Shown here: positions 8,124-63,253 of the stretch, piece by piece
Layout of the letters: every line of letters begins with the position of its first letter
Position numbering within the stretch: position 1 is the first letter of the stretch
NCBI GenBank assembly: GCA_024579835.1
Contig: CP102060.1
Span: 2,827,558 to 2,891,557 of the forward strand
Length of the DNA: 64,000 nucleotides
Source: Clostridiaceae bacterium HFYG-1003
GTDB lineage: Bacteria; Bacillota; Clostridia; Clostridiales; Clostridiaceae
Direction of reading: 5' to 3'
The notes under the pieces: model-generated
Seen by the model: only the letters and a program-made list of their open reading frames with translations
What the model was told of the DNA's origin: nothing
Database searches by the model: none
Program-made: the position numbers and the translations under genes

Positions 8124-9149
8124 ATGAATAATCAAAACAGAAGACCGGTATGGCTGAGGGATCCCCTGAGTACCTTCCTGTTCTTCCTAATCCTGAATAG
8201 TGTGACGGTAATGAGTCCGCTGGCGTTCAGCATCGCCCCGGTCATCCTGCCGGTGCTGCTGCTGCATGTGCTCCATCAGACCGGCCGCAGCGGCTTTCTG
8301 GCAGCTGCCCTGGCGTCCGCCCTGCCGTATCTGGTGCTGGGGGGAATCAGCAGTGGCTTTGCCCTGATGGTTCCGGTTCTGATCATGCTGGGGGCAGTCT
8401 ACCTGATCTGGCAGCGCCAGCTGAGCTGGCGGTGGTCCATCCTGGCAGCTTCCCTGGCGTTATTGATCGGACTGTTGCTGAATGCCTTTGTCAGCATCTA
8501 CCTGATCAGCGGATCGGATATCCTCCGGGTAACCTCATCCGTGGCAGAGAATGTCCGGAACGAACTGACCAACGCTCTGGCGGCCTCGGGCTACGAAATC
8601 CCATTGGCCCAGCAGCAGCTGATTGAACAGCTGAAAGCGTCGGTGACTCCGGAACTGGTCCAGGACCTGATTCCAACCCTGCTGATCTGCTGGTCTCTGA
8701 TCGGGGGCTATCTGACGCTGCGCTTTGCCCGCCGCTATCTCCCGTCCGCACTCCCGGTCAGGCAGTCCGTCCCGTGGTTTGCCATGCTGCGGATCCACCC
8801 CGTCCTCCTGATGGGGTTCATCTCTCTGGCGATGGGCGGATACCTGATGGCTGCCTCCAGCCCGCGCTGGGGCAGTCTCCTCTTCAATACCGGCTATGGC
8901 GTCACCCTCTTTCTTGGGATGACCGGCTCACTGACCTTCATCTGGTGGAGTCTGTCCGTGAACTTTCGGATGCGCCGGCGCTTTCCTAAAATGTTATTGA
9001 CGCTTCTGGCTCTGTTCTATTTGCCAGGGGAATGGATGATCCTGGCAGCGATTATCGATTCGGTGCTGGACTTCCGGAATGCCTCGGGCCACAGCCTGTG
9101 GCGCTGGATGACCTATCAGTTGACGGCAAGGGCTGGGAAAGGGGAATAG
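8124..9149 (+). CDS. yybS: YybS family membrane protein (DUF2232)
   Basis: This 341-residue polytopic membrane protein has about eight hydrophobic segments and a hydrophilic central part near residues 140-185. Its place immediately before gdpP and rplI is the conserved Firmicutes arrangement. Its biochemical role is not established; some relatives look like substrate-binding membrane components. An AAGGAAT site precedes ATG 8124, and gdpP starts three bases after the stop, indicating one operon. Confidence 0.88.
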   Translation: MNNQNRRPVWLRDPLSTFLFFLILNSVTVMSPLAFSIAPVILPVLLLHVLHQTGRSGFLAAALASALPYLVLGGISSGFALMVPVLIMLGAVYLIWQRQLSWRWSILAASLALLIGLLLNAFVSIYLISGSDILRVTSSVAENVRNELTNALAASGYEIPLAQQQLIEQLKASVTPELVQDLIPTLLICWSLIGGYLTLRFARRYLPSALPVRQSVPWFAMLRIHPVLLMGFISLAMGGYLMAASSPRWGSLLFNTGYGVTLFLGMTGSLTFIWWSLSVNFRMRRRFPKMLLTLLALFYLPGEWMILAAIIDSVLDFRNASGHSLWRWMTYQLTARAGKGE

Positions 9150-9152
9150 CAC

Positions 9153-11150
9153 ATGGACAAATACTCTCGTTTCAAGCGGGAACAGGTTCTCTACATCGTT
9201 GTGAACGCGGCAGCCATCCTGTGGCTGGTGTATCTGCGCCAGTTTCTGGCAGCGGGAGTCATCGCCCTGCTGCTGCTCCTGATCTTTGCCCTGTTGAACC
9301 AGCTTCATCTGTTCAAGCGCAAGGAGTGGGACAAGTTCACCAATGATTCCATCCGGAAGCTGAAACCTTCCATGGTGGAAGCCGTGGAGAAGATGGAATT
9401 TCCCCTGGTCTCCTTTACCCGGGATGGCCAGATCAGCTGGTATAACCGAAAATTCAGAGAAATCGCTGCCAAGGACACCATCCGTGATATTGATGAAGTA
9501 CTTGATCTGGATCCGGAAAAGCTCTGGAAAGGGGAAGTACCGGAATTCCTGAATTTCCAGAACAGGGTCTATAAAATCACGCCGGTGAAGTATACCGCCG
9601 CCCACGGCGAATTTGAGGAGGATCTGCTCTTTCTGTTTCTCATCGACGTCACCGAAGTGAAACGGGCGGAGGATCGCAAGATCATCACCATGCTGGTGGA
9701 GGTCGACAATCTCAGCGAGGTTCTCAACTCCGCGCCGGAATCGCGCCGGCCGCTGATCTCCGCCGCCATCGAAAAGCAGCTTCTGGATTATGCCACTCAG
9801 CTGAAGGGATTCATGAAGCGCTACTCCAACAGCAAAAGCATCCTGATGGCTCCCTATGAAATATTCCGGGATGAAGTGAAAAAGAAATTCCCCATCCTGG
9901 ATCAGATCAAGTCCATCAACCTGGGCAATACCATTGAACCGACTCTGTCCATCGGCGTCTCCTATGACAACGACTATCTGATGACGGACGGACTGGCGGC
10001 AGAACAGGCCAAGGAACTGGCACTGGGCCGGGGCGGCGATCAGGCGGTCATCAAGCGGGGAGAAAAGCTGACCTTCTTCGGCGGAAACTCCCGTGAAGTG
10101 GAAAAGAAATCCCGGGTTCGTTCCCGTGTCATCGCCCACGCGCTGCGTGATCTGATCAATGAGAGCGGCAGCATCTTCATCATGGGCCATGCCAATCCCG
10201 ATCTGGACTGCCTGGGAGCCGCGGTGGGCATCACGGCCATTGCCCGGTCGCTGGGCAAGCCGGCCTTCATTCTGATGGACGAGCCTTACCGCAATGTCGC
10301 TGACATTCTTCAGCTGATCAAGGCGGAAGAGTCCTATGCCGATGTGTTCCTGCCTTCGGACGCCGTCCTGAGCGAACTGAAACCCAACGATCTGCTGATC
10401 GTAGTGGACGTTCATTCCCTGGGGTATGTCCTGAACCGTCAGGTGGCCACGGCCGGCATCAACAAGGTGGTCATTGACCATCACCGGCGGGCACCCGATG
10501 CCATTACCGGAGCCACTCTGAGTTACATCGAGACCTATGCCTCCTCCACCTCCGAACTGGTGACGGAACTGATCCAGTACATCGTGGAGAAGCCCCATCT
10601 GCTCAAAGTGGAAGCCGATGCCCTGCTGTCGGGCATCATGGTCGATACCAAGTACTTCATTTACAAAACCGGCTCCCGGACCTTTGAAGCGGCTTCGTTC
10701 CTGCGCAAGGCCGGAGCCAACACCCTTGACATCCGCAACCTGTTGTCCTATGATAAGGAACTGTATTTGCTCAAGGCTGCCATCGTCAAGACCGGCGAGG
10801 TAGAAAAGGGTGTTGCCATCGCGGTCTGTCCGGCCGGGATCAAGGATCCCCTGATTGCCGCTCAGGCAGCCGATGAGTTCCTGAATCTGAAGGGGATCAC
10901 CACCTCCTTTGTTCTGGCTCAGGATGGCCCGGATGTGGTGATTTCAGCCCGCAGCAACGGCACAGTCAATGTTCAGGTCATCATGGAGAAATTCGGCGGC
11001 GGCGGACACATGACGATGTCAGGTGCCCGGGTCAAGGATGCCACCGCCGAGGAAGTCAAGGATAACATCAAGAAAATTTTGAATACCACCATCAGGGAGG
11101 AAGAAGACGATGAAAGTGATACTGCTACAGGACGTCAAGAACGTCGGTAA
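9153..11150 (+). CDS. gdpP: Cyclic-di-AMP phosphodiesterase GdpP (DHH/DHHA1)
   Basis: The product has 665 residues: two N-terminal membrane helices (about 10-55), a PAS-like domain (65-150), a degenerate GGDEF domain (about 165-300, without GGDEF), then a DHH phosphoesterase domain with [18 protein letters not shown] and DHHRRA, and a DHHA1 domain with [12 protein letters not shown]. It hydrolyses c-di-AMP to pApA and so tunes osmotic and cell-wall homeostasis. Its 3' end overlaps rplI by 41 bases, an unusually long overlap, giving a gdpP-specific Asp/Glu/Arg-rich tail. Confidence 0.95.
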
Positions 11151-43869: not shown

Positions 43870-44502
43870 TTACCAGCGTTTGGGAAGAAATCGATTTACG
43901 AGCGTCAGGGCGAGCAGATACATACTGAGGATGAGCAGCAGCAGCGGGTTCCATTCCAGGTATCCGCTGGGATACAGCATGACGGGACGGGTATAGAGAA
44001 GGAAAGGAACGTTGCCAATGATGTGAATCGAAAGGATCCCCATCACCAGGAAAATACCAGCGACAAGATCTTTGGTGTATTTGAGTCCGGTAATTCCGAT
44101 GACGATAAATACGATTTGCTGCAACAGCGCTTGAAGAAACACCGGATACGAAACCAGAGACTGCCGCCGGGTAATCACAAGCAGTGCCGTCAGGGAACAG
44201 ATCAGATAAAAGCCTGAAAAGAAAATCAGGACCTCCACCTTTGTTCGATGATGCTGGGGATGAAAGGTCTGGATCAGCTCTCCGGTCTGAGCATCATAAA
44301 ACTTGTTTGCGACATAAAGAACGGACAGTGAAACGATCAGGGGGGCAATCAGCTGGTAGACCATAATAACATATCGTTTGGATTCGCGGGACGCCTGATT
44401 GGGCGACAGAGCAGCCATGATGGCGAACAGCAGGATGGGAAGAAGCCAAAGTCCCCGCAGTTCTTTGAACTCAAACCGTACCTGCTTAATAAACCGATTC
44501 AT
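43870..44502 (-). CDS. ABC transporter permease component (6 helices)
   Basis: The 210-residue protein has about six hydrophobic segments and a basic N-terminus (MNRFIKQVRFEFKELRG), as in ABC-2-type permeases. It overlaps the end of the ATPase gene by 17 bases and is the last gene of the unit. The substrate is unknown. With the larger membrane protein encoded two genes upstream it probably forms the membrane part of one transporter. Confidence 0.78.
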   Translation of the reverse strand: MNRFIKQVRFEFKELRGLWLLPILLFAIMAALSPNQASRESKRYVIMVYQLIAPLIVSLSVLYVANKFYDAQTGELIQTFHPQHHRTKVEVLIFFSGFYLICSLTALLVITRRQSLVSYPVFLQALLQQIVFIVIGITGLKYTKDLVAGIFLVMGILSIHIIGNVPFLLYTRPVMLYPSGYLEWNPLLLLILSMYLLALTLVNRFLPKRW

Positions 44503-45340
44503 TCACGGCCTCATTCCGGACTGCGTCAAAATAGACATCCTGAATGGTGGGATGAATTCGACGCCACTCGTTCTTCAGTTCCTTCGGTCGGTTTTGGAAC
44601 AGGACGCGTTGACTGGTTGATCCGCTGATGGGATCGGTATCCTGAGTGATGACCCAGTGGGGGGCTTCGATGGACATGCCCCGGGGGATGTGGAATAATC
44701 GAGGGACAATGGACTCTTTCAAGGCAAGAGCAGATCCACTATGGGCGATTTGTCCGCGGTTCATCACTGCAATGACATCAGCGGTGTCCTCAATATCTTC
44801 CACGATATGAGTTGAGACAATAACAGGGGTGTTTTCTGAAATGGACTTGATCAATCCGGTAAAGGATACTCGCTCCAGGGGGTCAAGCCCCGCTGTGGGT
44901 TCATCGACAATAATTAGTTCCGGTTTCCCAATAAGTGCAAAGGCAATGCCCAGGCGACGCAGCATCCCTCCGGAAAGGGTTTTGATCAGTCGATCCTTTT
45001 CTTCTTCTAAATTCACCTGCTCCAGCAGATGGGACCAATTCAGATTTCGATGCTCATCCTTCATGATCGCCGCATACTGGACCCCTTCCTTCACGGTCAG
45101 ATTCCCGAAAAAATTGAATTTCTGGGGTAGGTACCCGATTCTCAACGTTGAGATCGGCTGATCCTGAAAAGTAATGGTACCTTCATATTCCACCAGGGAG
45201 GTGATGCACTTCATTAAGGTAGTCTTTCCTGCACCATTTGGTCCCAGCAGACCCAGCAAACCTTTCTCGAATTGAAAGGACAGATTCCGGACGGCTGCTT
45301 TATCTTTATATTTCTTAGTCAGTGAATCAATTTTTAGCAT
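44486..45340 (-). CDS. ABC transporter ATP-binding protein
   Basis: The 284-residue ATPase of the ABC-2/CcmA type has Walker A GLLGPNGAGKTTLMK, Q-loop IGYLPQKFNFFGNLTV, signature TLSGGMLRRLGIAFAL, Walker B LIIVDEPTAGLDP and H-loop STHIVED. A C-terminal extension of about 90 residues follows the core. It probably energises export or signalling together with the flanking membrane proteins. It starts one base after the stop of the large membrane gene. Confidence 0.92.
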   Translation of the reverse strand: MLKIDSLTKKYKDKAAVRNLSFQFEKGLLGLLGPNGAGKTTLMKCITSLVEYEGTITFQDQPISTLRIGYLPQKFNFFGNLTVKEGVQYAAIMKDEHRNLNWSHLLEQVNLEEEKDRLIKTLSGGMLRRLGIAFALIGKPELIIVDEPTAGLDPLERVSFTGLIKSISENTPVIVSTHIVEDIEDTADVIAVMNRGQIAHSGSALALKESIVPRLFHIPRGMSIEAPHWVITQDTDPISGSTSQRVLFQNRPKELKNEWRRIHPTIQDVYFDAVRNEAVNESVY

Positions 45341-45341
45341 G

Positions 45342-47246
45342 TTAGCTTTCTCCTATGATCCGGTGAACGGTCTCAAGACTGATCATACCTTGGTGGATGC
45401 TGCTGATCAGTTCGCGAACGATGCGCTCTCGCTCAGACACCGATTTTTTGAAATAGGGCATTAATTCTTTTTCTGTTTCCATCACATATTCCTGATCCTC
45501 AATTGTTACATTCAATCCTCTAATCATATAAAACACCACATCCTGAACATCAATGGGCTGGCGCCTGAGCGCGAAACTTCCATTAATCAAGCTGTATAGG
45601 ATCATTTCTTCGCTCTGATCTTTGACAAGTGCGGAAACCTTGACGGTTCCAAAGTCTTCGAATCCGATTAGATGATTGTAAGAAGTGCTGAGCCATAAAC
45701 CGTGTAGAAATTTATAGTCTGTTCCAGACTGAGACAATCCATATTTAGCTGCCACCGCCTGAAATTTTTCATTTGCTTGTTGAACCTGAGAGGTCAGTAA
45801 GTCGATCTCAGTGGGAGTAATCGAGGCGACATAGGCAGTAGTGGCATCGAGCTGATGAAGATTGCCATAATAGAGACTGACCCCCATATTTGATTTCCCT
45901 CGGAATACGCCATCGGAAGAACGATCCAGGCTGGAAAAAATCTCTTTCCCGGATTTGGTCTGCAGTGTCAGCTCATAATCGATGGGATTCGTATTATAGG
46001 CCGCGCTGAAATTGATCGAATAGCCATCATAAATAAAAGCAGCTGGCTGAATTCTGGCCAGGGGAAGCCAGTTGAAGAATGCCGGAAACGCAGCGGCCTT
46101 GTAATTTCCCGGGAAATAAGGAGAATTAAGCCCATCATATTTCAGGGTAATTTTTTTAACCTCCCTCTCTTTCAGAGAAAGCGGAATGCTGAACACCTCT
46201 CCATCCTGGTGAAATGGAATCGACATAGAATCGGCCAGGACTTCGCGAATGCGGAAGCCGTGATACAGCGAACCATTGATCGCAGTGGTGTCGGATACAG
46301 CAGTCAATGTCATATCCACTACAAAGGCGGCCTGACGGGATAACTCGACGTTTATATTCATATGATTGATTTCGTAGGTAATGGGGTAGAGCTCAGGGTT
46401 TGGCAGCGGAGCCATACTGTAATACTTGAAATCATAAATGTTCTCTGCCAACGGATCCCCGTTTGAACCCATGGGGCGTCTCAGCCAGGCCGGCTGGGAC
46501 CATTGCCATGCGGAAAAGATCACGGAAGCCAGAAGGAGCAGAGTGACTGGCAGAAATTTCTTGCTTTTGATTCTTGCAGTAATGATAAGCGTGAGCAACA
46601 GGAGCAGTGATAACAGAATCGTTAAGAATTTAAAGAGCCGAGTAACTTCGGTATCGAACCCATACAGGGGATTTTGAGCAATGTTTACACTGTAGGGTCC
46701 CAGATTGAGCCATGAGAACAAGCTGACATAGGGTAATACAATCTTGCTCACCGGAGAAACCGTAAAGGACAGGAACAGGAGAGCAAGATATTTGATCCGG
46801 TGTTGAATTAAATAACCAATCAGGTATCCGATCACAGCACAGGTAATATTGTTGATGAAGATATAGATCAGATGCAGGCTGAATATTTCGTTGAAGAGCC
46901 AGGGCGGGATATGCCCGGAAAGCCTCATCACAAGACTGATTCCGGTTAAAAGAAAAAAATGAATGAGATTGACCAGGACAATCGTGAGAAAGGAAGCGAA
47001 AATATAGCGATACATCCGGGTGCCCAGACTTGCCATTGCATCACGATAATCCTCACTGGTCATGCGGAAGGCAAAATTTGCGCCATACACCATGTTTAAC
47101 AGGAAACTGACCTGAAGAAACAATGTGATTCCATGAGCCGAAAGCGGCTCTGTGTACATAATATAAGTATAAAACAGCAATTCAAGCCCTAGAAATACGT
47201 AGATCCACCTTGTCCGGTTTAACTCTTTTAAATGAATAAATGTCAT
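45342..47246 (-). CDS. Large ABC-associated membrane protein with extracytoplasmic domain
   Basis: The protein has about 634 residues: roughly eight N-terminal membrane helices (20-270), then an outside domain (about 280-630) with beta-rich sequence such as YPITYEINHMNINVELSRQAAFVVDMTLTA. That layout resembles permeases fused to an M1 aminopeptidase-like domain, but the zinc motif HExxH is absent (the region reads HLIGFEDFG), so it would be a non-catalytic version. ATG 47246 has GGAG upstream, four codons after the first ATG. It is in one operon with the secreted protein and the ATPase. Confidence 0.7.
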   Translation of the reverse strand: MTFIHLKELNRTRWIYVFLGLELLFYTYIMYTEPLSAHGITLFLQVSFLLNMVYGANFAFRMTSEDYRDAMASLGTRMYRYIFASFLTIVLVNLIHFFLLTGISLVMRLSGHIPPWLFNEIFSLHLIYIFINNITCAVIGYLIGYLIQHRIKYLALLFLSFTVSPVSKIVLPYVSLFSWLNLGPYSVNIAQNPLYGFDTEVTRLFKFLTILLSLLLLLTLIITARIKSKKFLPVTLLLLASVIFSAWQWSQPAWLRRPMGSNGDPLAENIYDFKYYSMAPLPNPELYPITYEINHMNINVELSRQAAFVVDMTLTAVSDTTAINGSLYHGFRIREVLADSMSIPFHQDGEVFSIPLSLKEREVKKITLKYDGLNSPYFPGNYKAAAFPAFFNWLPLARIQPAAFIYDGYSINFSAAYNTNPIDYELTLQTKSGKEIFSSLDRSSDGVFRGKSNMGVSLYYGNLHQLDATTAYVASITPTEIDLLTSQVQQANEKFQAVAAKYGLSQSGTDYKFLHGLWLSTSYNHLIGFEDFGTVKVSALVKDQSEEMILYSLINGSFALRRQPIDVQDVVFYMIRGLNVTIEDQEYVMETEKELMPYFKKSVSERERIVRELISSIHQGMISLETVHRIIGES

Positions 47247-47325
47247 AAGAATCTCCATAGTAAATGAAATATATCGACGAATCAGAATTTTGCCTGATTC
47301 GTCGATTTAAGTTTATTTTAATATG

Positions 47326-47709
47326 CTAATCAGGGTCACTCATGGATCCCCATCCATATGCTCCTCCCAATGGACCGGCAGGATTTAGAACAAAATAATG
47401 ACCTGCTGAAGTACTAATAGGACCAATATTGAAATCGAAGGATTTGCCGATGTACATTCTTCGCTCGAAAATAACCGGTTTTAACAGAGAATCTTCCCGC
47501 AACTCGTAATAAAGATCGTTATCGCTCGTTCCGTAATTTTGACCGCTGATTCGTAAATCACCCTTATCGGCATGCTGAATTGAGCCGGAAGTTTTTCCCC
47601 AGCTGTCAGGGTAAATTGTCAGTGTCAATCGATCTCCGACTGAAGCTAGTACTGGAACAGACAGGCTGAATGCGACAATAGTTGCCGCGAGCTTACATTT
47701 TAATTTCAA
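47326..47709 (-). CDS. Small secreted protein of unknown function
   Basis: The 127-residue protein has a clear signal peptide (KCKLAATIVAFSLSVPVLAS), with cleavage likely near residue 23. The mature part has about 104 residues, is polar and Gly/Ser/Asp-rich, and ends PLGGAYGWGSMSDPD. The start is TTG 47709 behind GAGGTG. It is the first gene of the operon whose other three encode an ABC transporter. It could be a secreted peptide handled by, or sensed with, that transporter; no family was recognised. Confidence 0.65.
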   Translation of the reverse strand: MKLKCKLAATIVAFSLSVPVLASVGDRLTLTIYPDSWGKTSGSIQHADKGDLRISGQNYGTSDNDLYYELREDSLLKPVIFERRMYIGKSFDFNIGPISTSAGHYFVLNPAGPLGGAYGWGSMSDPD

Positions 47710-57343: not shown

Positions 57344-57790
57344 TTAGTTTTCAAATGAGTTCCGGAAGATATCCCGCAAGTGATCCATCTCTTCATGGGC
57401 AACAGAGTATATCGTCACCAGTTTATTATCCTTCTTTCCAACTGCAAGGTATTCACCATTGATGGAATAGCTTGTTATCTCGTTGTTGTCTTCATCAAGC
57501 ATAGTGAAAGTAATAATCAACCCGGTGGTCTTTTGTTCTGCTCTGAATTTTCTTTTAGGCTTCGATAGATCCACTTCTTTTATTGCATTCTTGATTTCAT
57601 TCACTTCATCAATATCAACGATGCTGTCAGAGGAAATCTTGCCCATATAGTCTGAGTAAGTATATCTAATTAATTTGACATTTTCAATATTTGAATTGTA
57701 AAGGTCATATTTATAGGCAAACCAATAAAAAATAAACCCCAATGCTGCCACAACTAAAACAGATAATACTATCAAACCTCTTCGCTTCAT
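57344..57790 (-). CDS. Membrane-anchored hypothetical protein
   Basis: The 148-residue protein has one N-terminal membrane helix (about 6-26) and an outside domain of beta-rich character with many Asp/Glu/Lys (SIVDIDEVNEIKNAIKEVDL, TGLIITFTMLDEDNNEIT, SINGEYLAVG). AAGGAG precedes the ATG. It lies 17 bases after the secreted protease gene and is probably co-transcribed. It might be a substrate, anchor or inhibitor of the protease; no homology was recognised. Confidence 0.65.
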   Translation of the reverse strand: MKRRGLIVLSVLVVAALGFIFYWFAYKYDLYNSNIENVKLIRYTYSDYMGKISSDSIVDIDEVNEIKNAIKEVDLSKPKRKFRAEQKTTGLIITFTMLDEDNNEITSYSINGEYLAVGKKDNKLVTIYSVAHEEMDHLRDIFRNSFEN

Positions 57791-57807
57791 GATAAACTCC
57801 TTATCAT

Positions 57808-59028
57808 TTAATATAAAAGTCTAACAGTATTACTCCATGCAAATGAGGTATCTCCAAATGCGAAGGCCCATTGTCCTGAGCTATTTTTGCTAGCCAATTT
57901 GAAGACTTCATATGCCGGATCCATTACTCTAATGGTTGTTGCTGTAGAAAAATTATATCCTGTTAAAGCAACTGCATGACCCAATTTTTCCCAAGGCCAA
58001 AATCCAGTTTTTCGTACACATGACATATAGGCTGGATCAATGTTATAAATAACAGTTTTAATTTGATCTTCTGTCAGAACGCCAGTCACTGTTGGAACGT
58101 AAGGGTTGCCTAATATTGTGCTTAGTGCTGCTCTGGCCTGGTAAACTGTAGCACCTTCATCATATCCTATCCCCATCCTGTCGGCCACCATTTTGGCTGT
58201 TAACCCTGAATGTTTGCTACTTTCGAACCGAGCCATAGAAGCTATAGTAGCTGCCCAACAAACCCCTCTCTGCTGACCATTGATAATCTGACCTACAATA
58301 GGATAGGAGTTTAAATAAGCTCTAGGAGGCAGATAGCTTAAAGAATTAATAGATTGTGTGGAAACAGAGGCGGATTGTAATTCTGTTTTTCGGCCCTGCC
58401 AAGTAAGACTATCATTAACTTCGGTTAAAGAAATACTAACAAAAGGAGCATTAATTAACTGTTCTTTCATATTTGAGGTGTTAATCACTTGTAATGAACC
58501 ATTATATCCTTCAGTTTCGCTAAAATTCCTTGCAATTTTCTCAACATTTACTGGGTAAATATCATAGCCAGACTGATACATGGCCATTTCACTATTTCCA
58601 CTGATCTTGGCTTGTTCCAAAGATGGAGCAAAGTCTTTTCCAAGGTTACAACTTATTTTTCCATCTATTTTAATAACACTGAAAATAGCTATAATAGTAC
58701 CATCCTGATTAACCAATGGGATATGTAATATATTAATATCCTCCCCATTCAACAAGTCTTCATAAGTGTATCCATCGGTAACTACTCTTAAGGGAGATAA
58801 TAAAGAAATTTCTCCTAATTCTTCAGAAGAAAAGCCAAAAGCTTCAGGATCATCACGAATTCCCGCTAGTAACGCAGGATAATCATTCTGAAGCGCGTAA
58901 TTAATGTCGTAAGGTATAATGCCAGTATTTATACTTGCGTTGGTAGGTTTTGCAGAAAGAAACGGCAATAGAAAAGTGATTAGCAACACAACGATTGTGC
59001 ATAGTTGCGTAGGACTCTTTCTTCTCAT
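57808..59028 (-). CDS. Secreted papain-like cysteine protease
   Basis: The 406-residue protein has a signal peptide (residues 1-31) and a pro-region of about 220 residues. A papain-like domain follows with GQQRGVCWAATIASMA (catalytic Cys257, oxyanion Gln near 253), GHAVALTGYNF (His351) and RVMDPAY (Asp370), as in staphopain/C39-like peptidases. The long pro-part suggests a zymogen. The codon usage is AT-rich compared with the core genes, hinting at acquisition. The only nearby partner is the anchored protein gene downstream. Confidence 0.83.
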   Translation of the reverse strand: MRRKSPTQLCTIVVLLITFLLPFLSAKPTNASINTGIIPYDINYALQNDYPALLAGIRDDPEAFGFSSEELGEISLLSPLRVVTDGYTYEDLLNGEDINILHIPLVNQDGTIIAIFSVIKIDGKISCNLGKDFAPSLEQAKISGNSEMAMYQSGYDIYPVNVEKIARNFSETEGYNGSLQVINTSNMKEQLINAPFVSISLTEVNDSLTWQGRKTELQSASVSTQSINSLSYLPPRAYLNSYPIVGQIINGQQRGVCWAATIASMARFESSKHSGLTAKMVADRMGIGYDEGATVYQARAALSTILGNPYVPTVTGVLTEDQIKTVIYNIDPAYMSCVRKTGFWPWEKLGHAVALTGYNFSTATTIRVMDPAYEVFKLASKNSSGQWAFAFGDTSFAWSNTVRLLY

Positions 59029-59545: not shown

Positions 59546-61300
59546 ATGTACTACGATTTTCTCGTAAAGATTCCGGAAAATACAGGCAAAATTACGGTGA
59601 ACCGGCGCGGTGAAACCACTTATATTGAATACACCTATGCCCGTCATTACAACGCCGAAAAGAAGTATAACGTTCCCCAGCGAACTACGATTGGAAAACA
59701 GTCCAGGGTGGATCCAGCGATGATGCAGCCAAACCAAAATTTTATCAAGTTTTTCCCAGAGGTCGCCCTGCCCGATGAACGGAATCATTCCGATCGCAGC
59801 AGTTGCCTTCGTGTCGGGGCATTTCTTGTCATTCGCAAGATCATGGAAGAATACAAACTACCTGAAATTCTTTCCGATTACTGGGACAACCGAGGTGTCG
59901 GACTGTTTCTTGATCTGGCTGCTTATTCTATTATCTGTGAAAATAATGCCGGGCAATACTATCCGGATTACGCCTACAATCATCCGCTCCTAACAGAGGA
60001 CATGACGATCTACAGTGACTCCACGGTATCTCGGTTTCTCTCATCGATAACAAGCGATGACAAAGTCGGATTCCTCAATCAATGGAATGCATCCCGGAAT
60101 CACCGGGAGCAGATTTATATTTCCTACGATTCAACCAACAAAAACTGTCAGGCCGGCGACATCGAGATGGCTGAATTCGGGCATCCCAAGGATGATCAGG
60201 GCGTCCCCATATTCAATTATTCGATTGCCTATGATGTGGATAATAAAGAGCCGCTATTTTATGAAACCTACCCCGGCAGTATCGTCGACGTGTCCCAGTT
60301 GCAATTTATGTTGGAGAAGGCAAAAGGATATGGCTATCGCAAGATTGGTTTTATTCTTGATCGAGGATATTTCAGCAAGAAAAATATTCAGTACATGGAC
60401 GCGTGCCAGTATGATTTCGTGATCATGGTCAAGGGGATGGCTTCTTTTGTCGAAAAGATCATCTTGAAACATAAAGGCAGCTTTGAGAAAAAGAGGTCTT
60501 GCGTGATTCCTGAATATCAGGCCTACGGGAAAACGATTCAGAAGAAGCTCTATGCGGATGATGAAATGGATCGATATTTCCATCTCTATCATAAAGTGAA
60601 AAAAGAAAGTGCAGAGCGTGGATGCCTGGAAGATAAAATTCAAAAAATGGCGGAATTTCTAAAAAAACAGGAGGGAAAGTCGCTGACATTCGGAGATGCC
60701 TATCACGAGTATTTTGAAATCTTTACCCATGAAAAGAATGATGGCACAAAAAAGTTTCTTTATGCAAAAGAAAAGAGCGAAGTGATTGAGAAGGAAATTG
60801 ATCTTTGCGGATACTTTGTGATCGTCACGTCCAAAAAAATGACAGCAGCAGAAGCGCTCTCGTTGTATAAGAGCCGAGATGCATCAGAGAAGCTATTCCG
60901 TGGAGACAAATCCTACCTGGGCAATAAAAGCCTGCGAGTCGCGGGGAATGAGTCTGCCGCCGCGAAGATATTCATTGAATTTGTGGCGTTGATTGTGCGG
61001 TGCAAGATTTATACGCAACTAAAAGCAATGATGAAAGAAATGGCAAAGAAGCCGAATTACATGACCGTTCCAGCTGCGCTGAAAGAGCTGGAAAAAATCG
61101 AAATGGTGCGGCAGATGGATAACGTATACCGGCTTGATCACGCCATAACCGCAACACAAAAGACGATACTGAAAGCCTTCGGTATCGATGAAAACTATAT
61201 CAAAACCAGCGCAACGAGATTAAGTGAGCTGTTAAAAGTGGCCGCGATGCCAGAAAGGGATGAGGAAGATGGCGCGTACGAGGAAGACAATCTCTATTGA
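59546..61300 (+). CDS. IS4-superfamily DDE transposase
   Basis: The 584-residue transposase has an N-terminal DNA-binding part, then the catalytic core: YISYDSTNKNC with the first Asp, FILDRGYFSKKN with the second Asp (DRGYFS typical of IS1634/IS4), and the late DASEKLFRGDKSYL region with the Glu (YxxRDxxEK pattern). AAAAGGAGT precedes the ATG. It is full length and looks intact. Confidence 0.9.
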   Translation: MYYDFLVKIPENTGKITVNRRGETTYIEYTYARHYNAEKKYNVPQRTTIGKQSRVDPAMMQPNQNFIKFFPEVALPDERNHSDRSSCLRVGAFLVIRKIMEEYKLPEILSDYWDNRGVGLFLDLAAYSIICENNAGQYYPDYAYNHPLLTEDMTIYSDSTVSRFLSSITSDDKVGFLNQWNASRNHREQIYISYDSTNKNCQAGDIEMAEFGHPKDDQGVPIFNYSIAYDVDNKEPLFYETYPGSIVDVSQLQFMLEKAKGYGYRKIGFILDRGYFSKKNIQYMDACQYDFVIMVKGMASFVEKIILKHKGSFEKKRSCVIPEYQAYGKTIQKKLYADDEMDRYFHLYHKVKKESAERGCLEDKIQKMAEFLKKQEGKSLTFGDAYHEYFEIFTHEKNDGTKKFLYAKEKSEVIEKEIDLCGYFVIVTSKKMTAAEALSLYKSRDASEKLFRGDKSYLGNKSLRVAGNESAAAKIFIEFVALIVRCKIYTQLKAMMKEMAKKPNYMTVPAALKELEKIEMVRQMDNVYRLDHAITATQKTILKAFGIDENYIKTSATRLSELLKVAAMPERDEEDGAYEEDNLY

Positions 61301-61625: not shown

Positions 61626-61645
61626 CACGTTATAATTATAACGTG
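61626..61645. promoter_or_regulatory. 20-bp palindrome over the transposase promoter
   Basis: CACGTTATAATTATAACGTG is a perfect palindrome holding TATAAT and the same ATTATAACG word as the IS ends. It sits 10 bases before the transposase ATG. Confidence 0.75.
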
Positions 61646-61654
61646 AGGTGGCGC

Positions 61655-63253
61655 ATGAATATCATCGATGTCAAAAACAAGAAAAACGGAGTTATCTACG
61701 TCTACGAATCCATCGACTACTGGGACAAAGAGAAGAAACAGTCTCGAAGTAAGCGTGTTTGTATTGGCAAACGTGATGAACAGGGCAATCTGATCCCTTC
61801 CAAACGACTCACTCAACCTCCGGTCTCCACTGTGATTAAACCAGGGCCGACTCCATCTACTTCCACTCGGCATGGTTATTTTGGCGCTACGTATCTGTTT
61901 GATGCGATCGGGGAGCAGCTGGGCATCACACAAGACTTGAAGGTATGCTTTCCGCAGATTTATAAGAAGATCCTTTCCGTGGCCTACTATTTGATTTTGG
62001 AGGACCGCAACTCCCTTCTTCGTTTCCCGAAATGGGATAGGACCCATTTTCATCCACATGGGGCCTGCATCTCTTCCCAACGAAGCAGTGATCTGTTCTC
62101 GATGATTACGGAAGAAGCAAAAGAACGTTTCTTTCGCTTGCAGGGCAAGCGCCGGATGGAAAATGAATATTGGGCCTATGATACCACCAGCATTTCGTCC
62201 TATTCAGAGTCTCTCAAACAAGTCAAATATGGGATGAACAAGGATCATGATCCGCTTCCCCAGATTAACCTGGCGCTGCTCTTTGGAGAAGACTCAGGCT
62301 TGCCGTTCTACTACAGAAAGCTGGCCGGCAACATCAGCGATATCTCGACCCTGAAGAAATTGCTGGCCGACTTAAAGCAACTTGATTTTGGCAAAGTTAA
62401 ACTGGTCATGGATCGTGGCTTTTACAGTGAAGCCAACATCAATGCCCTTTATCAGAACAACCTGAAATTCCTGATTGCCACCAAAGTATCCCTGAAGTTT
62501 GTGCGAAAAGAATTAGACAAAGTCAGAGACAGCATAAAAACAAGGACCAACTACAACTCAATCTATCAGTTATACAGCCATTCCACCGCCATTGAATGGA
62601 ACTACTCTCAAACAAGACCCCGCAAAGGCGATGTCATCAAGGATACTCGCCGCATGTATCTGCACATCTATTACAGTAGCGAGAAGGCGTTGGAACATGA
62701 GAGCCGCTTCAATCTGATGCTGGATCAGTTGGAGGCTGAGCTTACGAGCGGAAATCGAAAACCAGAGAACGAGAAGCAGTACGCCAAATACTTTGAACTG
62801 TCAGATACCCCGGTACGTGGAATCAAGATCATTCCCAAACAGGATGCCATCACTCGAGCTGAAAAGGACTATGGCTTTTTCGCGCTGTTAAGTAACGACA
62901 TCAAGGATCCCATCATAGCCTTGGAGATTTACCGTAACAAAGATCTGGTCGAGAAGGCGTTTGGGAATCTTAAAGAAAGGCTCAATCTGAGGCGAACTGC
63001 AGTCTCATCTGAAAGCTCGCTGGACGGAAAGCTGTTTGTCCAATTCATTGCCCTGATTTTTATGTCCCATTTGAAAAAGACGATGGCCGATAAGGGTCTA
63101 TTCCAAAACTACACCATGCAGGAGCTACTAGACGAACTTGATGTCATAGAAGCATTTGAAAATCCAGGGAAGGCTCTCCAAGTAGGCGAAGTGACCAAGA
63201 AGCAGGAAGGCTTGTATACGAACTTGGGAGTAGACCCGCCATCCACGTTATAA
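61655..63253 (+). CDS. IS1634-like DDE transposase
   Basis: The 532-residue transposase has an N-terminal segment with KRVCIGKRDEQGNLIPSKR, then the catalytic core: YWAYDTTSISSYSE (first Asp), LVMDRGFYSEANI (second Asp) and EIYRNKDLVEKAFGNLKERL (Glu in the YxxKxxVE pattern). GAGGTG places the start at ATG 61655. It is complete. It differs clearly from the transposase at 59546, so the two IS elements are different species. Confidence 0.9.
   Translation: MNIIDVKNKKNGVIYVYESIDYWDKEKKQSRSKRVCIGKRDEQGNLIPSKRLTQPPVSTVIKPGPTPSTSTRHGYFGATYLFDAIGEQLGITQDLKVCFPQIYKKILSVAYYLILEDRNSLLRFPKWDRTHFHPHGACISSQRSSDLFSMITEEAKERFFRLQGKRRMENEYWAYDTTSISSYSESLKQVKYGMNKDHDPLPQINLALLFGEDSGLPFYYRKLAGNISDISTLKKLLADLKQLDFGKVKLVMDRGFYSEANINALYQNNLKFLIATKVSLKFVRKELDKVRDSIKTRTNYNSIYQLYSHSTAIEWNYSQTRPRKGDVIKDTRRMYLHIYYSSEKALEHESRFNLMLDQLEAELTSGNRKPENEKQYAKYFELSDTPVRGIKIIPKQDAITRAEKDYGFFALLSNDIKDPIIALEIYRNKDLVEKAFGNLKERLNLRRTAVSSESSLDGKLFVQFIALIFMSHLKKTMADKGLFQNYTMQELLDELDVIEAFENPGKALQVGEVTKKQEGLYTNLGVDPPSTL

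Follow-up and report, generated by a model that had tools for sequence, protein, structure and literature searches.

A small secreted protein encoded beside an ABC transporter with a predicted inactive M1-like domain: a candidate bacteriocin and self-protection unit

In the lactococcin 972 and Sil type of gene cluster, as excerpts of three reports lay it out (PMC4004548, PMC11161930, PMC4289311), the gene of a bacteriocin with a signal peptide is followed by that of an integral membrane protein and then by that of an ATPase. The membrane-protein gene adjoins the bacteriocin gene in S. shinii (PMC11161930, excerpt), and DSY2024, a 126-residue protein of Desulfitobacterium hafniense, has been classed as lactococcin 972-like (PMC4289311, excerpt). 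Such clusters (lclA, lclB and an ATPase gene; Sil of Streptococcus iniae) are the closest known layout to a unit of four genes in a 64,000-nucleotide stretch of Clostridiaceae bacterium HFYG-1003 (CP102060.1), the whole of which is called the window here and supplies the coordinates wherever no other locus is named; both kinds have plasmid-borne members. No description of the four-gene unit was found in the literature searched, which consisted of open-licence PMC papers. The unit encodes a small secreted protein and the parts of an ATP-binding cassette (ABC) transporter:

47326..47709, minus strand: secreted protein of 127 residues, TTG start at 47709, stop ending at 47326, GAGG ribosome-binding site
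47273..47306, minus strand: terminator-like hairpin of 14 bp between the secreted gene and the permease gene, z -5.0 to -6.9
45342..47258, minus strand: large ABC permease, an open reading frame of 638 residues from the ATG at 47258
46569..47258, minus strand: membrane half of the large permease (residues 1-230), NosY-like in its alignment with 7o0y_E
45345..46412, minus strand: outside domain of the large permease (residues 283-638), M1 metallopeptidase fold in the predicted structure
44486..45340, minus strand: ABC ATPase of 284 residues (PF00005, E 1.9e-28)
43870..44502, minus strand: second permease of 210 residues, entirely membrane, its gene overlapping that of the ATPase

A preliminary description of this DNA had reported four tightly spaced minus-strand genes at 43870-47326. 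All four are present, but the secreted gene falls almost wholly outside that interval, the true span being 43870-47709. The spacing is indeed tight within the transporter, where the ATPase gene starts one base past the permease stop and overlaps the second permease gene by 17 bases, while the secreted gene is set off from the permease by a gap of 67-79 nucleotides containing the hairpin. The 634 residues given there for the large permease are probably its true length although the open reading frame allows 638, because a GGAG is better placed at the ATG at 47246 than at the one at 47258. By inspection, the ATPase has intact Walker A (GPNGAGKT), signature (LSGGM) and Walker B (LIIVDEP) motifs and an intact H-loop histidine. 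The G+C content of the unit is 0.44-0.49 against 0.51 for the window, the block being the poorer of the two.

As is the case for lactococcin 972, the secreted protein of the window unit is small and exported with a Sec-type signal peptide, whereas the large permease of the unit carries a pseudo-M1 domain and is joined by a second ABC-2 permease. The window protein does not match the lactococcin 972 family (TIGR01653, cut-off 32.1 bits), and none of the seven genomes searched with this model gave a score above the cut-off, one match of 15.2 bits falling, in genome G754, on the secreted gene itself; the best score of a secreted protein is 15.3 bits (locus L062), and one of the 18 secreted proteins compared with the model reached E 0.019. 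The window ATPase scores 94 bits against a cut-off of 254.85 bits for the ATPase of lactococcin 972 clusters (TIGR03608), and lactococcin 972 is absent among the fold matches listed for the secreted protein. None of 16 permeases matched a bacteriocin-associated membrane-protein model at E 1 in NCBIfam or Pfam (libraries not checked for containing such a model). A very distant kinship with lactococcin 972 may nevertheless exist, because the G754 match, sub-threshold as it is, sits on the secreted gene. If the unit makes and withstands a bacteriocin, as proposed below, it would resemble the lactococcin 972 kind in its working, yet by the sequence tests run it is not a member. A similar likeness of principle links it to the LanFEG-type self-protection of lantibiotic producers, in which an ATPase and two dissimilar permeases shield the producer, as is proposed here. 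In this case too there are differences: no library tested links the permeases of the two, no modification enzymes lie by the window unit, and the window ATPase scores 141.9 bits against the TIGR03740 cut-off of 309.75 bits.

In Pfam and NCBIfam no family reaches its cut-off for the large permease and nothing matches the secreted protein, while relatives of these two give scattered sub-threshold matches at best; the second permease has no Pfam match, its NCBIfam match to SPE_1075 (E 1.3e-4) being far under the cut-off, and no NCBIfam equivalog exceeds its own cut-off among the best 25 matches listed for the ATPase. With PADLOC models of anti-phage defence systems, the window secreted protein, both window permeases, three other secreted proteins and one other large permease have no match, and the matches obtained are generic ATPase ones.

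To follow the unit beyond the window we relied on profiles, which were required because the single sequences are too diverged: the window permease as single query matched nothing in the genome contigs, the window secreted protein found only itself among 118 relatives and nothing in the plasmid collection, and two plasmid secreted proteins found only themselves in that collection. Among 225 genomes of the order, profile searches for the large permease gave hits in 15, many of them distant; the class yielded hits in 8 genomes among 391 and the phylum in 10 among 398. Plasmid relatives came from tblastn (12 records, Bacillaceae or Planococcaceae), and a pattern scan of genome contigs gave seven loci, two of them already in the set; a phage collection searched with the L062 permease gave no match. 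The result is a set of 37 distinct loci with a permease of the window kind, which fall into three groups according to the small signal-peptide gene adjoining it:

Secreted gene present (20 loci): window, L025, L008, L055, L058, L059, L060, L061, L062, L064, L065, L066, L070, L071, L072, L073, L074, L076, L089, L090
Secreted gene a remnant (2 loci): L026, L088
Secreted gene missing (15 loci): L007, L056, L057, L063, L067, L068, L069, L075, L077, L078, L086, L091, L103, L104, L105

In the first group, the secreted gene of L061 is a tail at the contig edge, that of L073 comes after the permease, and L074 has two divergent copies. Eleven distant or fragmentary hits from the order (G140, G067, G043, G057, G183, G206, G200, G229, G053, G024, G134) were excluded from the 37, as were the G183 row of the class search, G635 and the second G650 hit (L101, L102). 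Upstream of eight excluded loci (L027-L034), an adjoining open reading frame with a signal peptide occurs in L033 only, L027 and L030 having too little sequence.

The pairing of secreted protein and transporter, which recurs in many Bacillota, is thus established, as the preliminary description had required it to be in other genomes if its account was to hold. The pairing is not obligatory, since 17 of the 37 loci have no intact secreted gene. Its departure from chance is shown by a mechanical rule (same strand, 95-170 residues, signal-like start, gap of at most 250 nucleotides), by which a candidate adjoins 13 of the 28 permeases examined and 4 of the 268 other genes taken from the same and related loci (Fisher p 4e-12), two of the four control positives being themselves parts of the system (L033, L073). 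This test and the close-pair set used 29 of the 37 loci (all but L026, L056, L057, L069, L091, L103, L104 and L105), with L061 dropped from the test for lack of upstream sequence. A profile of the secreted protein run over the 398 genomes of the phylum draw gave five strong hits, all adjoining the transporter, and no strong hit and one weak hit of 51 residues in the 388 transporter-negative genomes; the corresponding Fisher comparison (5 of 10 versus 1 of 388) is not taken as proof, since the profile already contained four of the five positives, besides the window's own protein. The window's own genome contains a second full unit (L025), whose secreted protein is a different one, 136 residues long. 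Adjoining this second unit (L025 1446-5999, minus strand) are a small exported protein of 159 residues, for which Pfam has no match, a lipoprotein-like protein, a protein with one transmembrane segment, an ATPase and a permease with four transmembrane segments that is MacB-like by inspection.

Close pairs of loci show how the transporter comes to stand alone. Loci L055 and L057 are 99.6-100% identical across the transporter, but L057 is without the stretch carrying the secreted gene, the upstream flank still being 84% identical (the permease frame of L057 is broken as well). Similarly, the alignment of L088 with L089, at 96%, begins within the secreted gene and runs on from there, with a transporter that is 94-98% identical, the 5' part of the gene being lost in L088, and the match of L067 to L066 ends at the permease start. 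Transporter copies with no secreted gene are also found on plasmids (L075, L103, L104). Retention of the transporter alone fits a protection function rather than that of an obligate partner. The preliminary description had left the choice open between sensing, export and immunity; the evidence favours immunity, because the secreted protein has a Sec signal of its own and the transporter persists where the secreted gene is gone, not the reverse.

The structure predicted for the large permease (from 16 relatives; mean predicted local distance difference test score, pLDDT, of 72) combines two known folds. Residues 1-230 have the NosY fold (7o0y_E, Z 19.7, root-mean-square deviation 2.8 over 217 aligned residues), which together with the adjoining ABC ATPase gene (PF00005) is what characterizes a NosY-type ABC-2 permease. 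Residues 283-638 have that of M1 metallopeptidases (4gaa, Foldseek E 4.3e-12, Z 18.9), with similar values (Z about 18) for leukotriene A4 hydrolase, ERAP1 and the two-domain M1 protein of Deinococcus; model confidence is low in the last third (pLDDT about 50-60 past residue 470). The outside domain differs from these peptidases in being fused to an ABC permease and in its motifs, as neither HExxH nor GxMEN occurs in the M1-like part of any of the 29 permeases scanned. The one HELLH seen, at residue 2 of the L070 permease, is in the cytoplasmic N-terminus. The earlier claims of an M1-like outside domain and of a missing HExxH are therefore borne out, and at the level of predicted fold it is well supported that the domain is an inactive M1-like one. 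The eight membrane helices of the same account are probably seven. NosY has six, and the model places one more at residues 233-253, between the NosY-like half and the outside domain; the number must be odd for the M1-like domain to end up outside. As in the NosDFY complex, the unit would be an ABC machine with an outside partner, but here the outside module is fused and of M1 type, and no Nos genes are among the neighbours seen.

The secreted protein has a signal peptide at about residues 1-22, with n-, h- and AxA-like c-regions by inspection, and a Sec-type signal peptide and small exported size are found in its relatives too (by inspection of sequence and hydropathy). An AlphaFold2 model from seven relatives predicts that its mature part is an all-beta sandwich or small jelly-roll (pLDDT 80.5 overall, mostly 76-96 from residue 31, with best blocks of 93-96). 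A profile of six proteins that lacks the window protein finds it with E 2.4e-8 among 1,110 sequences. Profiles of the secreted protein run against PDB sequences returned antibody leader sequences or nothing, and a viral structure library gave weak generic matches only. Directly after the ATG of two secreted genes, inside a run of A, the frame is broken (L008, about 9570-9600; L026, about 8990-9010, minus strand), which may reflect sequencing error, decay or control by slippage. A second protein with a signal peptide lies by the unit of L064 (7448-7918, minus strand) and matches DUF6147 at 25.1 bits, the cut-off being 24 bits; this may be a related or a partner family.

A strong hairpin (z -2.5 or lower) like that of the window is found at the junction in 14 of the 17 loci having both genes on one strand, although the hairpin sequences are unrelated. 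Three loci (L025, L058, L072) miss the threshold, although in L072 there is a short hairpin, rich in G+C, with T after it. Judging from its position and recurrence, the hairpin probably acts as a partial terminator or as a processing site, holding expression of the transporter under that of the secreted protein.

The surroundings of the unit vary between loci. AgrB and LytTR response regulators (Pfam) adjoin L026, L062 and the more distant L033; ECF-type sigma factors occur near L064 and L065, and annotated sigma and anti-sigma genes near several plasmid units. On plasmids, five of the six loci carrying the secreted gene have a protein of phospholipase A2 (PLA2) type within about 4.5 kb, as against none of the six without it; the p value of 0.015 was computed after the pattern was noticed, on 12 plasmids of which seven are from Priestia. 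These five proteins, of 237-259 residues, are unannotated and share a calcium-loop and a His-Asp motif (invariant YxxCGxxC, then DxCCxxHDxCY):

L070 10332-11045, minus strand: PLA2-type protein
L071 8004-8783: PLA2-type protein
L072 3143-3889: PLA2-type protein
L073 8678-9436: PLA2-type protein
L076 8026-8766: PLA2-type protein

All five match Pfam PLA2 models under the cut-offs (four with E 0.001-0.0035 and the fifth with E 0.0017). Their N-terminal region has no signal peptide, and an S8 peptidase, a sigma factor and YvrJ are nearby in three of the loci. Megacin A-216 is a PLA2 bacteriocin of Bacillus megaterium; by analogy, the plasmid proteins could possibly be megacin-like toxins.

Taken together, these observations lead us to propose, at what we regard as an even chance, that the unit encodes a bacteriocin-like protein exported by Sec and an ATP-driven pump for self-protection. 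The 127-residue protein would be exported by Sec, released as a beta-sandwich of about 100 residues and act on neighbouring cells. The products of the three downstream genes would form one ABC machine, made of two dissimilar ABC-2 permease halves, the ATPase and the dead M1-type domain outside, which would recognise the secreted protein; ATP hydrolysis would then strip that protein off the producer's membrane or off a target there, protecting the producer, and the intergenic hairpin, to go by its position and recurrence, would set the secreted protein well above the transporter. What the analysis shows of this is the gene order, the recurrence, the folds as predicted, the loss of the zinc motif and the retention of the transporter alone. 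The neighbouring AgrB and LytTR genes, the plasmid location and the PLA2-type proteins are bacteriocin-like surroundings and speak for the proposal as well.

Several points weigh against it. Antibacterial activity, which the proposal infers, is known for no member. The jelly-roll fold predicted for the secreted protein is common, its PDB matches are generic jelly-rolls and sandwiches (PirA, E 7e-4; p24 GOLD, Z 9.4; collagen-binding and carbohydrate-binding module (CBM) domains), and such likeness shows no function. By the six-protein profile, three secreted proteins (L025, E 0.012; L060, 0.018; L033, about 6) are not significantly similar to that of the window, and most of the plasmid ones likewise have no significant sequence link to it, so that the kinship of the distant secreted proteins amounts to place, size, signal peptide and approximate alignment. 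Nor does the secreted protein always evolve faster than the permease, L070 and L090 being 82% identical in the former and 58% in the latter. In a set of 13 divergent representatives, loci with more similar secreted proteins tend to have more similar large permeases (r 0.43, p 0.0096), which is not so for the ATPase (r 0.09, p 0.30). The outside domain is not singled out, however: selective covariation with it was looked for and not found, its r of 0.35 being no higher than that of the membrane half (0.40), and the second permease has 0.38. The absence of an intact secreted gene from 17 loci and the narrow, after-the-fact basis of the PLA2 association count on the same side.

The same covariation with membrane subunits could be read differently, namely that the small protein is a client of the transporter, such as an adhesin, matrix or signalling protein, which the machine would release, fold or mature on the outer face of the membrane by Lol-type or NosDFY-type extraction. 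The NosDFY complex works with an outside partner, NosY is the nearest membrane fold, and a Sec signal beside an adjoining ABC machine is equally what this would produce. A soluble Sec-exported protein requires no release machine, though, and several lineages keep the transporter intact without the client gene, so that we consider such a role unlikely, if still worth serious thought.

Lone transporter copies would be expected of a detoxifier, and the unit might serve to sense or detoxify some compound outside the cell, with the small protein as a soluble subunit handing the ligand to the pseudo-peptidase domain. Jelly-roll modules are often sugar-binding, in keeping with the CBM-like fold matches. 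No substrate-binding-protein fold is among the fold matches listed, however; the small protein is highly diverse in sequence, and the agr and PLA2-type neighbours point to antagonism, all of which makes this role distinctly improbable.

It is more improbable still that the small protein is a subunit of a fibre or surface appendage, an Ena-like jelly-roll, whose assembly the transporter drives. The fold matches do include subunits of Bacillus Ena (7a02, Z 8.1; 9i0y, Z 7.9), but common arrangements give Z values in this range, the mature part of the window protein has no cysteine (the other secreted proteins have 0-3), and a signal peptide is present.

That an ordinary ABC transporter has the secreted gene next to it by chance, as the loci without an intact copy might suggest, is scarcely credible and is refuted at the level of counts by the mechanical comparison, the conserved hairpin junction, the second copy in the same genome and the homologous secreted proteins at the same position in distant genera.

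Other features were noted apart from the unit. In the window, two long transposase-like open reading frames (by inspection only) lie about 12-14 kb from it, and a tRNA triplet is duplicated in tandem; in L031, two short peptides with CHCGC-type cysteine clusters, a radical SAM protein (PF04055) and an S8 peptidase (PF00082) adjoin a distant transporter copy whose large permease is shorter; this is likely to be a cluster for a ribosomally synthesized and post-translationally modified peptide using a related ABC machine.

59546-61300, plus strand: transposase-like open reading frame
61643-63253, plus strand: transposase-like open reading frame
57344-59028, minus strand: exported protein of 406 residues with weak papain-like or C39-like matches (E 0.01), then a membrane-anchored protein of 148 residues
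20888-21423, plus strand: tRNA-Glu, tRNA-Val, tRNA-Asp triplet, duplicated
L031 378-4147 and 4861-7981: the cysteine-cluster peptides and enzymes

Returning to the reading of the unit as bacteriocin and self-protection pump, a wider and more doubtful form of it, offered tentatively, would make these proteins a hitherto undescribed class of bacteriocins, exported by Sec, of jelly-roll fold and widespread in Bacillota, with a dead M1 peptidase as receptor arm of the ABC machine by which producers protect themselves, jelly-roll protein and PLA2-type toxin encoded side by side and acting jointly on plasmids of Bacillaceae, and transporter-only copies serving as orphan immunity in competitors. In the plasmid records, the large permease is labelled only "hypothetical protein" in 9 of 12, has a double label in one, "ABC transporter permease" in one and none in one. 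If the proposal is true, a family of antagonistic secreted proteins would have been overlooked by current annotation, an enzyme fold would have found a second use as receptor in a protection machine driven by ATP, and the bacteria carrying transporter-only copies would be natural resistant competitors.

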